Shown: piece after piece, positions 53,611 to 64,000 of the stretch | Layout: the number at the start of each line of letters is the position of its first letter | Numbering within the stretch: position 1 is the first letter of the stretch | Source: Frankia casuarinae | GTDB lineage: Bacteria; Actinomycetota; Actinomycetes; Frankiales; Frankiaceae | Assembly: GCF_000013345.1 (NCBI RefSeq) | Contig: NC_007777.1 | Location: 186,001-250,000 of the forward strand | DNA: 64,000 nt | Reading direction: 5' to 3' | Made by a program: the position numbers and the translations under genes | Notes under the pieces: generated by a model | Seen by the model: the letters and a program-made list of their open reading frames with translations, nothing else | Database searches by the model: none | What the model was told of the DNA's origin: nothing

Positions 53611-53799
53611 GAGCCGCCGTTCGCGGATGGCAACTGATTCTGCACGGCGGCAAGCATCGCGGGGATAGCTGAACCTGGCCTTTACGGCACCTGTGCGTCA
53701 GCTATGAGTTCACCGGCCCATCGTCGCGGTTGGCGGTCGGGTCGAATGCTGGTGATTGATTGATGTGAATCCGGGGTTTGTGTTGTCGTGCCGTTCCGG

Positions 53800-54309
53800 C
53801 GGTGGTTCGCTGCCGGTGCCATTGCTGCTGGAGGCGATGGTCGACGCGCTGCTGGCCGGAGTGACGTCAGACCTCGACGAGCGCCAGCCCTGGCACGACC
53901 AGGTCGCCCAACTCGCTCATCGTCTGCACGAGGCACGGCTGTCTCGCCGCGACGGTGCTCGGCTGTTCGCGGGCGTCTTCTTTCCCCTGCCCGACGCGCT
54001 GGCGTACGGCGAACAATTGGTCTCCGCTCTCCGCGTGGGGGGACTGTCCAGCCGAGATGCCGCGTGGTCGACGGACACGATCACTTACTACGTGGTCAGT
54101 CACAGCACTGAGGAACAACTGAGGAACAACTCGCCGCCGCTCTGCCCGATCCGTCCGCGAGCGCCGCACGGCTCATTGGCCCGGTCGGTCCACGACGTCA
54201 CCCGCAGCTGTTCGCTGCGCTCGACCATCTCCCTGCTCCGCACCAGAAGGAGCACTTCGACTTCGGCCTGCGTCTTGTCATCGGCGGCATCCGCCGTGCC
54301 GTCGGGTAA
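53800..54309 (+). pseudogene. TetR-family regulator remnant broken by an 11-bp tandem duplication
   Basis: 'PWHDQVAQLAHRLHEARLSR' and 'RDGARLFAGVFFPLP' match the C-terminal ligand domain of TetR-class repressors. After 'SHSTEEQL' an 11-bp duplication (GAGGAACAACT at 54110-54131) shifts the frame. Removing one copy restores 'STEEQLAAALPDPSASAARL' through 'FDFGLRLVIGGIRRAVG' to a TAA at 54309. The N-terminal helix-turn-helix is also absent. It lies next to the exporter operon, which it may once have repressed. Confidence 0.78.
54110..54131. repeat. 11-bp tandem duplication disrupting the TetR remnant
   Basis: Two perfect copies of GAGGAACAACT. Deleting one copy restores the reading frame exactly. 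Confidence 0.95.
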
Positions 54310-54984
54310 ACAGGATCATGGGCGGCCGGTGCCTACCCGCGGCGATCCGAGTACCGTCGCCCAGGCCATGAGATGGCCCTCGGCCACGCGCCACGCGCCA
54401 CGCGCAAGCCGTCCAACACGATCGCGATCCGCGTGGTGCGGTGCTCCCTGCTGGCGGTCGGATTGGCAGACCTGACGGCCTGCTGCTATTGGGAGATCAG
54501 GGTATCTGTCATTGGTAGAGTAGAGACACGGTCGACGCCGGCTCGCCGGCCGGTCATTTCATCATCGCGGGCAGCTCCGCACCGCGAGGGGCAGTGGTCC
54601 ACTCGGGCGCGGGACGTATCGTGCCGCTGCGGACGCGCCCGCTGAGCATGGCCGAGCAGGACGTCGACAAGCCGACTGTGAGCCTCGCCGCGCCACGCCC
54701 CCGACGATGTGGCGCTGCAGGAGCAGGCAGAACACGAAGACCGGCAGGCAGGCCAGGTCGCTGCCGGCCCCCAGGCCGCGGCGATCCCGAGCACCGTCGG
54801 CACGAAGCCGATGGTGATCCGCACCTGGATGCACAGAGGGATGGCCTTGCTCGGGTGGTAGGCGGCCCGGGTGAGGCCGGTGACCACAGTAGTCGTTGGG
54901 GACGGGGCTTCTCGTAGGTCAACTCCTGTACCGGTGTGCCGGAATTTCCTAGAAACCGCGGTCCGTCGCCACCACGATGGTCCC

Positions 54985-55391
54985 ATGATCTTGATTACTG
55001 GTGCGACCGGCACCGTCGGTCGCGAGGTGCTGCGCCTCCTAGTCGGCCGGGGCGCCCGGATTCGGGCGATGACGCGAGAACCAGCCCGTCTCCGTCTTCC
55101 TGATGGCGCGCTGATCGATGTCGTGCAGGCCGACTTCGAACGTGCTGACTCGCTCCACAGCGCGGTCGCTGGTGTGGACAGCGTCTTCCTGCTGACCGCT
55201 CCGAGCCCCACCGGCTCGGTCGCCGAGCATGACCTGGCCATGATTCAGGCGGCCCGTGCCTACGGCGTCCGGAAGGTTGTCAAGCTGTCCGCCATCGGCG
55301 GGAAAGCCGATGACGCCGACAATCTGCCCTCGCCCAGGCACCGTGCCGGCGAACAGGCGCTGGTCGCCAGCGGACTGACCTGGTCCGCGCC
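54985..55391 (+). pseudogene. NmrA-like NAD(P)-binding protein, 3'-truncated
   Basis: Starts 'MILITGATGTVGREVLRLLV' (Rossmann loop) and continues with 'ADFERADSLHSAVAGVDSVF' and 'ARAYGVRKVVKLSAIGGKAD'. This is the azoreductase/NmrA type. Similarity ends at 'ALVASGLTWS' (about 55385), before the substrate-binding half ('ILRP..F..N'). The following sequence belongs to another gene fragment in a different frame. The 54310-54984 interval upstream holds no convincing gene. Confidence 0.75.
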
Positions 55392-55940
55392 GGATTCGAT
55401 CCGTCCATCGCGGACTCCGCCGTCGACGGCTACCAGCTCGTCCGGGACGGCGGTAACGCAGTCATCACCGACGATGTCGACCTGTTCGATATCAGGCCCC
55501 CGGCCAGCGCGGCTTCGTACGCGCCGAGTCCTGATGCGCCCAGCGGGCCGGCTCGGGCAGGGCAGATCCCGCCGGATCGGAACCGGGCCATGGCGAGGGC
55601 GGCGGCGCTTGAGGATCGGCTGTTCGCGACCGCGCCGCCACCGACGCGGGGCCGGGAACATGGTGCCTTCGGCCGGACCGTGCGCGGGGAGTGGGTGACC
55701 GCGGATCTGGTCGGCCCTTCCAACCTGCGCCTTTTCCTCGGCGTCCTCGACCGGCCGCTGGAACCCGCGCAGCTGGGCGCCTACCGCCGGCAGCGTGGCG
55801 CCGCCAGCCGCGACTTCGATCGGCTCCAGGTTGCCGTCGGGCGGCGGTTGATGGTCGTCGTGGCCCGTGGCACGGACCGTGAGCCCGACTGGGTGGAAGT
55901 GACCGGCCATCTCGGGCCCCCGCAGGCTGGCGAGGTCTGA
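55383..55940 (+). pseudogene. C-terminal fragment of an unidentified protein
   Basis: A protein-like frame with no start codon at its head runs from the NmrA break to a stop at 55940: 'LVRAGFDPSIADSAVDGYQL', 'NLRLFLGVLDRPLEPAQLGA', 'RRLMVVVARGTDREPDWVEV'. The first ATG in frame is at 55590. The family is not recognised. The direct join to the NmrA fragment points to a deletion that removed the end of one gene and the beginning of the next. Confidence 0.4.
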
Positions 55941-55999: not shown

Positions 56000-56834
56000 T
56001 CACAGGGCGGACCCTGAGCGTAGGAGCCGGGGATGGTCAGGGCGTAGCCGATCAAGGTGATGGGCGGGACCGAGGACGGCTTGCCGGGCGGCAGTCGCGA
56101 GGATGGCCTGTGCGCGGGCGGGGAGGCCGAGCCGGTTCCAGTGGAAGATCACGTGTAGTGCGATGATGGCACGTATCCAACGGGTAAGCTGGCCCTCTTC
56201 GCGGAGCTTCCGGAGCGTTCCGCCCGCGTCCTCGAACGCGTCGAGCCAGCTGCCGAGGAGGTCTGCGCGGGCTTCGCCGACGAGGAGACGGTGGACGTCG
56301 CCTGTGAAGGAGGCCCAGACCTGCGGGTCCGACGGCGGGTTGGCGAAGACCGAGCGCTGCTCTGCGATCCGTGCCCAGACATCTCCTTGCTCGTTGAAGT
56401 CGAGTCCTGCGGTGCGCATGAGCGCCGTGCACAGCACGAGGGAGTGTTCGCGCCGGTCGGTCGGGTTGGTGGCGAGGAACGACAGCAGGTGGTTGCTGTC
56501 GTGGTGGAACAGCTCGTGGGCGGCCGTTCATGCTGGCGGGGCCGCCGAAGGCGTGGACCTCTGGCTCGTAGATGTCGGCGGTCCAGCGGACTCCATCGGT
56601 GAGCAGCGCGTGGGGGCGGTCGGTGGTCGTGTCGTACTGGCCGTCCGTGTCCTGCGCGGTCAGGTAGCGGATGCGCCAGGCGCCCTTGCGGATGAAGAAC
56701 CAGGAGGTGATGAGCCCGTCCGCCTCGGCGCGGGGCAGGATGCGCGCCAGGTGACCGATGGCTTGGTCTTCCCGCCCGCGGGGCTGCGGGCCGGGGTAGC
56801 GGATGTTCAGCTGTTTCCATGGGGTCTCGTGCAT
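56000..56834 (-). pseudogene. Thiopeptide-type bacteriocin biosynthesis protein (LanB C-domain), frameshifted
   Basis: Starts 'MHETPWKQLNIRYPGPQPRG' 14 bp after the LanC stop. 'ADGLITSWFFIRKGAWRIRY' and 'DIYEPEVHAFGGPASMN' are hallmarks of the TIGR03891/SpaB_C domain, which eliminates glutamate from glutamylated Ser/Thr in RiPP dehydratases. After 'ASMN' one extra G (near 56527) shifts the frame; the next frame continues 'AHELFHHDSNHLLSFLATNP' to a stop at 56000. A stand-alone elimination domain is normal in FxLD-type and thiopeptide clusters. No precursor peptide, LanB N-domain or methyltransferase gene was seen nearby. Confidence 0.8.
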
Positions 56835-56848
56835 GTCGGGCCTTCCGG

Positions 56849-57600
56849 TCAGCAAAGCAGGAGGCAGGCGTCCCAAGACGTCGTGGTCCCGGCCACGGCG
56901 AGCTCGGCCCCGGCCGACCCGTCGAGGAAGCCAGGGGATGCGTCCGCCGCAGCGGCGGTGTCCTGGTGCAGACGCAGCAGCGGTGCGAGGGCGATAGGGG
57001 TTCGCGCGTCGGCCGCGATCCGGCGTGCGGTGGCGAGTAGCCCGGCGGTCCCGTGGCAGAGGCCGGGTTCAGTGAGCCGGGCCAGTTGGGCCGGGTCGCG
57101 GATGCAGGCGGCGAACGCCGTTTCAGCGAGGTGCTCGCGGGTGGTGTCGCCGAGGGCGCGGGCGGCGAGCTGTTGGGTGCGGGCGATACCCGGAGCGCCG
57201 TAGCACCACGATGGCCGCAGCGGGCCGCGTTGGCGGGGCTCGCCGCAGTCGAGGTCGTCGAGCGTGACGAACTCCGGCCACCACGATCCTTCGCTGGCTG
57301 GCCGCCGCCAGGTATCGAGCCACTGGCAGATCGTCCTGAGCGCCTGTTCCTGTCCGTCGACTCGGACGCCGTCGAGCAGGGCGAGGGCCAGAAGCGCGGC
57401 GGGGCCCGTGATGCCGTGGGCGATCCCGTGGTTGCCATGCCCACCGGGCGGGCCGGCCTTCGTGCGGCTGGGGCCGTGGGGGCACCACCAGCCGGGCAGG
57501 CCGTCGATCGGCTCCGTGAGAAGCACCAGGTAGGCGAGGACCTCGCGGAGCAGGTCAAGATCGTCGAGGCGGCGGGCTACGACGCCGAGCCCGGTCACCC
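56849..57600 (-). pseudogene. LanC-like lanthionine synthetase, 5' part replaced by IS66 sequence
   Basis: The C-terminal ~245 residues of a LanC cyclase. 'GNHGIAHGITGPAALLALAL' holds the catalytic-site His region, and 'RPSWCYGAPGIARTQQLAAR' and 'EPGLCHGTAGLLATARRIAA' carry the zinc ligands (Cys, and Cys-His). LanC proteins are about 400 aa; the first toroid half is missing. The frame is fused in phase to an IS66 transposase N-terminus (57600-58132), giving one open frame of 427 codons. The zinc site is intact but the fold is incomplete. Partner of the frameshifted gene at 56000-56834. Confidence 0.82.
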
Positions 57601-58132
57601 CGCCGGGCCGGGCGGCCACATGACGGCGCCCGCAGCCGCACACGACCCGGTAGAGATCATGCTGGGTCACGGTCGACCCGGGCCGGTTCGACATCGTGGG
57701 ACTGGTGCGAACGGGCGACCCCCGCCGGCCTCGCCCCGGCCAGCGACACCCCACAGTCACACACCCCGACCGGAAAATGCGCCTCGACCCGGTCCGGGTC
57801 CTCCCGCCAAGCCAGCGTCCACCCGTCCTGCCCGGCTGCTTACCACGTTTCTTCTTCCCGCCCCCGGCGGCACGGCGCTCAGCCCGGTTCGGCCCCACCC
57901 GGCCCGGCAGCACCCCGTCCGACGACGGCGGCAACGACGGGTTCCCCGAGTTCCGCGAGCCCGCCCGCCTCAACCGGTCGACCTCCGCCGCCAGCTCCTC
58001 GACCCGACGTTCCTGCCCAGCCAGCCGCTCCTCCCGCTCGGCGATCCCGGCCCGCAGCTGTTCGATCAGCCCCGCCCGCGCCACCACGAGAGCAACCAGC
58101 TCCTCACGCGACATCTCCTCCGGCGGCGGCAC
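57600..58132 (-). mobile_element. IS66-family transposase N-terminal remnant fused in frame to lanC
   Basis: 'VVARAGLIEQLRAGIAEREE' and the following coiled coil ('RRVEELAAEVDRLRRAGSRN', 'SGNPSLPPSSDG') are the IS66 TnpC N-terminus. The zinc-finger part reads in two frames: 'LAWREDPDRVEAHFPVGVCD' and 'SLAGARPAGVARSHQSHDVE' lie in another frame between two single-base indels (near 57830 and 57690). Past these the frame returns at 'GSTVTQHDLYRVVCGCGRRH'. The rest of the transposase is gone. The two indels compensate, which is why the open frame runs on into LanC. Confidence 0.75.
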
Positions 58133-58242
58133 CCCACCACATCACCACACGCACCAGATCCGATGCGCCACACATCAGCCAACAGTCGGACCCGGAACGA
58201 GCGCCAACCACTCACAGCAACATCAACAATGAAGCTGAATGT

Positions 58243-58521
58243 TTACGACGGGCCATGGTGCGGATCATGGCCCAGTGGACGAAGGTGGCAGAGCTGGCCG
58301 GGTCGCGTTCGTAGTCCCGAGCGAGGCGGCGGTGGCCGGCGATCCAGGCCAGGGTGCGGTTCCACCACCCACCGCTTCGGAAGCGGCTGGAAGCCTTTCT
58401 GTCCTTCCTTCTTCCGGACGATCTCCACGGTGGTCTTCATGACGGTGGCGGCCCAGGTCACGAACCGGCCGGCGAACCCGCCGTATGCTCGGACTACTAC
58501 GAGACCTCCGTCCCGCTCCAC
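58243..58521 (-). pseudogene. IS5-family transposase 3' remnant
   Basis: 'GRFVTWAATVMKTTVEIVRK' and 'GQKGFQPLPKRWVVE' are followed, after a one-base insertion near 58360, by 'RTLAWIAGHRRLARDYERDP' and 'FVHWAMIRTMARR' in the next frame. This is the conserved C-terminal DDE segment (final Glu and the R-x6-R helix) of IS5/IS427-type transposases. Earlier parts are lost. The flanking 58133-58242 and 58522-58824 sequences show no gene. Confidence 0.75.
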
Positions 58522-58824
58522 GGCCCTCGGCCGGCCACGAACCTGCCCGCCACCAGACAGGACAGAGGTTGTCGAGGAACGTGAGCAGGCTGTCCGGTGG
58601 CCGGTAGCGTTGGGCCTACGACTCTCGGACGCGAAGACCCGCGTACGTCAGGACTGCTCCCGCCCTTCCCGGCATGCCCCGGTCAAGGCTGTCCTCAGCT
58701 ACGTCGTCCACGAACAGGAACCGGCAGCTGGGGGCGGTGAAGTAGTGGTCGACCAGCAGTTGGCGGGCGCCGTCGCGGTCCTGACGGTTCGTTCGTTCGG
58801 GCGCTGACGCATGGTCGGCGGCCG

Positions 58825-59118
58825 GTGGCGATCACCACCGATAAGGCACCTGTCTACCCGAGGCTCCTCGACGAGCTGTTGCCTGGGATGCCTGCCATGT
58901 CGACGCCGCCCGGGAGAACAACCGGATCGAAGCCGACCACGGCCGACTCAAAGCACGACGCCGCGCGGGCTGAAATGGCTGCGCTCGGTCCAAACTCTCA
59001 GCGCCGGACACGCCTTAGTCCAGAACGTCCGCCGCGGCCACTTCCGAACTCGGGATCGACAGCAACCCACAGCTGAGGCTGGCCGCCGCGTTCACCGAAC
59101 TCGCTACCGCTATCTGAC
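58825..59118 (+). pseudogene. IS6-family transposase 3' remnant with two frameshifts
   Basis: Three consecutive frames spell the C-terminus of an IS6/IS26-type transposase: 'AITTDKAPVYPRLLDELLPG', then 'CHVDAARENNRIEADHGRLK', then 'LKWLRSVQTLSAGHALVQNV' 'RRGH'. The final DDE Glu lies in 'IEADHGRLK'. The N-terminal half is absent. It marks the right end of an IS-rich debris field (56.8-59.1 kb). Confidence 0.75.
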
Positions 59119-59244
59119 CGACAGACGCCCCGGCCCGCTGGCATGCCCAGCTTCCCCGTAACGCAACAGAGCCCCCGGGGATCACCCTCGGCTTGCTGGC
59201 AGGCGGACACGTCGCCGACGGCCACGTCCGCGCCGGCGCCGCCG

Positions 59245-63147: not shown

Positions 63148-63244
63148 ATAGCGGCCGATGCCGGGTTGGGCCGTGCGGCGCGGGAGCGTCGCCGGACCGG
63201 GCGGGTTCGGTCCGCGTCCGTGGGGGAACACCAAGGAGGCGAGC

Positions 63245-64000
63245 ATGCCGAAGCTTGCCCGCAGTGACTGGTACGACCTTGCCCGCGACACCAACTGGTC
63301 GTTTGGCTATGTGTCCGAGCAGGACGTCTTCCCAGAGGAGCTGTCGGGGACGGGCCGGGTCCCAGCCGAGGGGTGGCTGGCCTGGGACGAGCCATACAAG
63401 ATCACTTATCGGGAGTACGTGCACAACCAGGTGACGAAGGACACCACGACGTACTCGGTCAAGAACGCGATCGCCCGCTCGGCGCTGTTCGAGAAGCTCG
63501 ACCCGGGATGGAAGTCGGTGATCCTGGCGCACTACGGCGCGATCACGATGCCGGAGTACCTCGCCTCCATCGGTGAGGCGCGGATGGGCCGGTTCGGGCG
63601 GGCGGCGGCGTGGCGCAATACGGCGACGTTCGGCACGCTCGACGAGGTCCGGCACGGCCAGATCCAGGCGTTCTTCCCCTATGGGTTGATCGGGAAGGAG
63701 CCGCGGGCCGACTGGGCGCTCAAGGCGTTCCACACGAACGACTGGATCGTGCTCGCGGTCCGGCAGCTGTTCGACGACATGTTCGTCGCCAACGACGCGC
63801 TGTCGATCGCGCTGCAGCTCACCTTCACCCTTGAGACCGGTTTCACGAACCTGCAGTTCCTCGGCATGGCGGCCGACGCGATCAAGGTGGGCGACCTGGA
63901 GTTCGGATCGCTGATCTCCAGTATCCAGACGGACGAGGCCCGCCATGCCCAGCAGGGCGAGCCGACCATCAAGATCCTTGCCGAGGGCGGCCACAAGGAC
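63245..64000 (+). CDS. TmoA-like diiron monooxygenase hydroxylase alpha subunit, partial
   Basis: 252 codons from an ATG after AAGGAGG, running off the window. Without gaps it follows toluene-4-monooxygenase TmoA and the related aromatic/alkene and isoprene monooxygenases. The diiron ligands fall at the TmoA numbers: Glu 104 ('TMPEYLA'), Glu 134 and His 137 ('LDEVRHGQ'), Glu 197 ('TLETGFTN'), Glu 231 and His 234 ('TDEARHAQQG'). Gate residues Ile 100 and Thr 201 are kept. Position 196, Phe in TmoA, is Leu here. It inserts oxygen into alkenes or arenes with a Rieske ferredoxin, coupling protein and reductase that should be encoded to the right. Confidence 0.93.
   Translation, partial: MPKLARSDWYDLARDTNWSFGYVSEQDVFPEELSGTGRVPAEGWLAWDEPYKITYREYVHNQVTKDTTTYSVKNAIARSALFEKLDPGWKSVILAHYGAITMPEYLASIGEARMGRFGRAAAWRNTATFGTLDEVRHGQIQAFFPYGLIGKEPRADWALKAFHTNDWIVLAVRQLFDDMFVANDALSIALQLTFTLETGFTNLQFLGMAADAIKVGDLEFGSLISSIQTDEARHAQQGEPTIKILAEGGHKD

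Follow-up and report, generated by a model that had tools for sequence, protein, structure and literature searches.

An in-frame IS66-LanC fusion in Frankia casuarinae, very probably the remnant of a decayed FxLD-type class I lanthipeptide cluster

Introduction

Actinobacteria carry a type of class I lanthipeptide cluster that includes an O-methyltransferase and, in many cases, an elimination-type domain standing alone, as described in the part of PMC7268733 relevant here. We equate the FxLD-type clusters with families I 1-4 of that paper and take the parent of the locus studied here to be a cluster of this actinobacterial type. Table 1 of PMC3091789, published in 2010, enters the strain CcI3 genes Francci3_0205 and Francci3_3997 as lone LanC, and the accompanying text proposes that frequent rearrangements could be the reason why Frankia has lanB and lanC genes lacking a lanA. 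For the same genome, 53 fragmentary transposases are counted in the section of PMC2770080 on this subject.

We analyzed a 64-kb stretch (hereafter the window), which comprises positions 186001-250000 of the single-contig 5,433,628-bp chromosome and contains a lanC-like gene fused to part of a transposase gene.

Results

The fusion and the gene downstream of it are made up of the following features:

56849..58132, minus strand: fused ORF, 427 codons (427 aa), start at the GTG of the IS66 transposase
57604..58246, minus strand: left part of an IS66-type element, comprising its GTAAAC end (58246) and ~176 codons from the start of the transposase, with two one-base indels
57600..57608, minus strand: probable junction left by the deletion, where the IS66 transposase gene meets lanC, with a few bases of imperfect similarity
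56849..57603, minus strand: 3' 70% of lanC (residues ~108-356 of the ortholog), with the zinc ligands and the His212 counterpart kept and the Asp141 counterpart lost
56064..56834, minus strand: stand-alone gene of the TIGR03891 (thiopep_ocin) type, with a frameshift near 56524 and without its own stop

In a profile search, residues 193-378 of the fused ORF matched LANC_like (2e-22), and residues 22-104 gave a DUF6444 match of 23.9 bits, below the cut-off of 27; DUF6444 is the N-terminal domain of IS66-type transposases. The switch from IS66 to lanC lies at 57603/57604, and each gene keeps its native frame there. Twelve of the 13 orthologous lanC loci align with the window DNA from 57603 onward, the thirteenth from 57605. 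On the other side, IS66 similarity begins exactly at 58246 in all four copies aligned, from three other genomes, and it ends at the junction or at most 26 bases past it, except for one copy that stops 26 and another that stops 117 bases before it. The ORF, the profile matches and the similarity edges at 57603 and 58246 together bear out the initial annotation of the locus as an IS66 N-terminus joined in phase to LanC. In the region of the joint, an IS66 copy of the same genome reads CGGGGTGTCCGG and lanC of the closest orthologous locus (G032) reads CGGGCTGACCGG, which places the crossover within a few bases of imperfect similarity. The G032 locus is 88% identical to the window over 1,540 bp of DNA, a match that exceeds chance.

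GTAA is the typical terminal end of the IS66 family. The left end at 58246 is of this type and common to the copies of other genomes, and the N-terminus of the transposase is present. The catalytic DDE domain and the right end of the element are absent, lanC sequence standing in the window from 57603 on. A plasmid search with the IS66 part returned one record with two places, the better of which covers 13% of the query. Beyond the IS66 end, 58245-59173 is a mosaic of pieces also present at other places in the genome, seemingly further IS remnants:

58245..58484, no strand assigned: repeated element, piece 1, probably an IS remnant; 77-78% identical to three genomic copies, weak IS5_3 match (E 0.074)
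58702..58783, no strand assigned: repeated element, piece 2, which adjoins piece 1 in two of the three other copies
58780..59173, no strand assigned: third repeated-element remnant, with 82% matches in two places at 4.91 Mb; taken for an IS by eye

Compared with intact homologs, one of which has an open frame of 504 codons, the IS66 part is one base short near 57830 and one base longer near 57680, so that 50 codons are read out of frame; in its native frame, the stretch 57830-57680 resembles the IS66 homolog. Two compensating indels that leave 427 codons open, as initially proposed, were thus found. From the base composition of the IS part, the chance of these 50 codons staying open is ~0.42, and the window contains 32 stop-free stretches of at least 427 codons; the openness of the fused ORF is therefore unremarkable. 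It was not forced either, since the other frames of three intact IS66 homologs contain stops across the whole aligned part. Selection for an open frame is not supported, as one antisense frame across this region is equally open, with 1 stop like the ORF itself. We consider the in-phase joint an accident, a one-in-three event.

The lanC part contains neither a stop nor a frameshift, a point against the decay reading. Window positions 57601-56852 correspond to residues 108-356 of a 356-residue ortholog, 251 of 356 residues being kept; accordingly, ~107 residues or about 30% are lost, less than the first half that had been thought missing. In an alignment with NisC (2g02), along which residue counterparts were counted by hand, D104 of the ortholog corresponds to Asp141, H169 to His212, and C240, C289 and H290 to Cys284, Cys330 and His331; the catalytic roles of these NisC residues were taken from the relevant part of PMC9889658. 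The counterparts of C240, C289, H290 and H169 are all kept in the window, in agreement with the initial description of the zinc ligands as intact. D104 is absent, as retained LanC sequence starts only four residues after it. Since the lost N-terminal segment includes D104, the zinc ligands and His212 stay and the conserved acid is gone. In a MAFFT alignment, D159 of the IS part falls into the column of the lost catalytic Asp, which we take as chance; in sequence, this residue is distant from the joint.

The fusion could be read as a new functional protein, in which a coiled-coil IS66 N-terminus and a zinc-binding LanC domain are expressed from the IS66 start. The 427-codon open frame and the intact zinc ligands and His212 counterpart speak for this, and a structure model of the fusion still finds MadC (8byk) as its best match (Z 18.7, 256 aligned, rmsd 4.3). 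However, the model of an intact ortholog scores Z 28.0 against the same structure (340 aligned, rmsd 4.0), residues 54-177 of the fusion have a pLDDT below 50, 50 codons of the IS part are out of frame, and the N-terminal ~107 residues are gone together with the Asp141 counterpart. Model confidence is modest, with a mean pLDDT of 66.7 for the ortholog and 56.9 for the fusion. We regard a new functional protein as highly improbable. An extension of this idea, in which the cell translates and retains the fusion so that it can scaffold or regulate one of its own three complete FxLD clusters, is extremely unlikely.

The TIGR03891 gene starts at the ATG at 56834 and is the next gene on the strand after the fused ORF. 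Each half scores 68.6 bits, above the cut-off of 48.45, but the halves occupy different frames, and near 56524 the gene differs in length by one base from the closest ortholog; the single-base frameshift first noted in this partner enzyme is thereby confirmed. In addition, the stop near 56063 is gone and the gene reads on past this position. The indels and the frameshift might be sequencing or assembly errors, and the locus a cleaner fusion, since the three one-base differences all lie in or beside short G/C runs. Nevertheless, the genome is a single contig with 99.94% completeness, the junction and the lost TIGR03891 stop are independent of single bases, and the missing genes are not restored by other base calls, which makes this reading very unlikely.

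TIGR03891 is found in lanthipeptide and in thiopeptide clusters. An ortholog search gave matches in 34 of 78 genomes, and all 13 matches outside the own genome with at least 65% identity (12 genomes) were taken as orthologous loci. In all 13, LanC residues 1-355/356 are in one frame and are followed by a TIGR03891 gene in one frame covering at least 238 of 257 residues; the enzyme of G032 scores 199.3 bits. LanB is present in all 13 loci, in two frames in one and cut by a contig end in three. Ten have a complete FxLD methyltransferase homolog, the other three lying at contig ends, and all three loci tested exceed the cut-off of 320 for the NCBIfam profile methyltran_FxLD (409.3-445.7 bits). 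A 62-aa ORF of G032 matched the LD_lanti_pre precursor model with 27.2 bits, just below the cut-off of 30. A search of ten ortholog gaps with a simple motif yielded FxLD-like precursors in three, the other seven being negative with that motif. Both precursor results weigh against the reading as a decayed FxLD-type cluster. Judging from the orthologs, the ancestral order would be methyltransferase, FxLD precursor, LanB, LanC and TIGR03891 enzyme. The presence of LanB and an FxLD-type methyltransferase upstream in 10 of the 13 loci indicates that the parent was most likely a class I FxLD-type lanthipeptide cluster with a protein-isoaspartate-type methyltransferase. A thiopeptide cluster is not favored, because the ten orthologous loci with enough flank carry LanB and the FxLD methyltransferase homolog. 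From the initial annotation as an inactivated lanthipeptide or thiopeptide cluster, we accordingly retain the inactivation and, on account of the orthologous loci, the lanthipeptide (FxLD) assignment, and drop the thiopeptide one.

In the window, tblastn with five proteins (E 1e-3) detected no LanB, methyltransferase or precursor gene, and the lack of LanB and a precursor at the locus is a further point against a new functional protein. Genome-wide, FxLD precursor matches were obtained at 1.34, 2.15 (weak), 2.16, 2.39 and 3.93 Mb, with none near 0.24 Mb at E values up to 1, and the methyltransferase of the FxLD system matched 17 places, none of them near 0.24 Mb. When a 9.4-kb stretch of an orthologous locus was compared with the genome, the remnant was the only match above 86% among the 40 of 538 candidates scored, and the next long match in this set was one of 74% at 4.78 Mb. 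Since no second high-identity match was present among these 40 of 538 candidates, there is no sign of the lost part having moved, and a move of the upstream half instead of its deletion is not supported. For the lanC stretch at or near the junction, 43-bp matches of 86% came up at 3.804 Mb and at 0.836 Mb, and both are regarded as chance; by eye, the 250 bases around 3.804 Mb look like unrelated GC-rich DNA.

The genome contains seven LanC loci (8 matches). The other six are about 0.9 Mb or more away, measured round the chromosome if it is circular, and a nearby intact lanC, which the initial annotation had named as counterevidence, is thus lacking. Identity to the closest orthologous LanC is about 42-48% in five of the six and 64% in one damaged copy. 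Complete clusters with methyltransferase, LanB, LanC, TIGR03891 gene and FxLD precursor are located at 1.34, 2.16 and 2.39 Mb. At 3.93 Mb, no LanC similarity is left beyond about residue 310, and LanC is separated from the TIGR03891 gene by a transposase-like ORF of 433 codons. At 4.22 Mb (L105:5564-6847), the LanC paralog shows a second in-frame accident, residues 5-131 being fused to residues 231-354, and an integrase-like ORF is found downstream among methyltransferase pieces. At 4.78 Mb, LanC begins at residue 182 with a transposase-like ORF alongside. The mobile-element ORFs at 3.93, 4.22 and 4.78 Mb were named by eye. Together with the remnant in the window, four of the seven LanC loci are thus damaged, each beside a mobile-element gene or remnant. 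A second fusion protein at 4.78 Mb, suggested by a 642-codon open frame, was rejected, as its front part is antisense to the transposase-like ORF.

In the 2.39-Mb cluster, 2393823-2393927 (L053) matches the FxLD precursor model with 57.9 bits (cut-off 30). By its position, this cluster would be cluster IV of CcI3, which is entered without lanA in the cluster list of PMC3091789.

Changes in the window and in G032 were assigned to lineages with seven outgroup loci, tied sites being dropped. LanC has 24 synonymous and 18 nonsynonymous changes here versus 21 and 13 in G032 (p = 0.82), the TIGR03891 gene 18 and 24 versus 25 and 20 (p = 0.29), and residues of LanC invariant in the outgroup changed three times here versus four times in G032. 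The direction fits relaxed constraint, but the difference is not significant for LanC and the TIGR03891 gene together (pooled Fisher p = 0.35), suggesting that the break is recent relative to the G032 split or that the test is weak. The result is a point in favor of a new functional protein. The counts taken alone are compatible with a kept function.

Francci3_0205 is very probably the fused ORF at 56849-58132, as judged from its position and numbering and from the seven LanC entries given for CcI3 in Table 1 of PMC3091789, which equal our seven loci; consequently, the locus is already in print there as a lone LanC. Among the titles and abstract openings on Frankia lanthipeptides or lantibiotics, no mention of an IS66-LanC fusion was found. 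Francci3_0204 is probably the TIGR03891 remnant, in view of its neighboring tag number and of the parallel with FRAAL6342 of F. alni, which by number comes next after the LanC FRAAL6343 and is likewise called an O-methyltransferase. In Table 2 of PMC3188489, Francci3_0204 appears as 'putative O-methyltransferase' in the top 100 of a 5-day ammonium culture (RPKM 670). If Francci3_0204 is the TIGR03891 remnant, the remnant is transcribed, which counts against the decay reading. Pseudogenes of this genome are usually transcribed, but this does not explain the top-100 rank of Francci3_0204. Francci3_0205 itself is absent from all three top-100 lists of transcripts in PMC3188489, which argues against a new functional protein.

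Table 2 of PMC3188489 also includes Francci3_3997 in the top 100 of a 3-day N2 culture (618) and Francci3_2032 in that of a 5-day culture (667). By their numbers, Francci3_0204, Francci3_2032 and Francci3_3997 all belong to LanC loci, each with a top-100 transcript in one culture. The value of Francci3_3997 may be inflated by the overlapping antisense transposase-like ORF.

Beside the remnant, the ORF at 53756-54475 matches only the C-terminal domain of a TetR_C_1 regulator, and the best match of an NmrA/NAD-binding protein encoded at 54871-55698 ends at residue 172 of 275. Further decay in 53756-55940 is possible. At the far end of the window, an ORF that starts at 63158 and runs off at 64000 looks by eye as if it could encode a soluble diiron monooxygenase large subunit.

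Discussion

Our results show two parent genes, their junction, missing genes, frameshifts and intact orthologs. The locus is very probably a decayed remnant of an FxLD-type class I lanthipeptide cluster, in which IS66 and lanC were joined by a deletion and are in phase by chance. An IS66 element would have been in place upstream of the cluster, among older IS debris, when a single deletion reached from inside it into lanC via a few bases of imperfect similarity. This event would have left only the proximal third of the IS66 transposase and taken the methyltransferase, the precursor, lanB and the first ~107 lanC codons. The left-over TIGR03891 gene is itself frameshifted and lacks its stop, and we infer that the remnant gives no working product. 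One deletion is most likely, being the simplest history; successive events are also possible.

This reading corrects the annotation of the locus: the lone LanC would be a deletion remnant and not a stand-alone cyclase. It also adds one more clear case of lanthipeptide cluster loss beside mobile elements in this genome, most likely ordinary genome decay of one among several related clusters.

With the FxLD-type class I clusters of Actinobacteria (TIGR04363, TIGR04364), the locus shares the order of LanC and, next to it, a TIGR03891 gene standing alone, which the orthologous loci have too. In contrast to these clusters, LanB, the precursor and the methyltransferase are gone here, LanC is truncated and the TIGR03891 gene is frameshifted. 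Francci3_0205 is listed as a lone LanC in PMC3091789, whose entries for this gene make no mention of a fusion with IS66 or of a deletion. In the IS-linked genome reduction of CcI3, as presented in the relevant part of PMC2770080, IS remnants likewise border lost DNA. However, whereas that account involves recombination between IS copies, the present case concerns one locus and was probably brought about by a deletion at short similarity.
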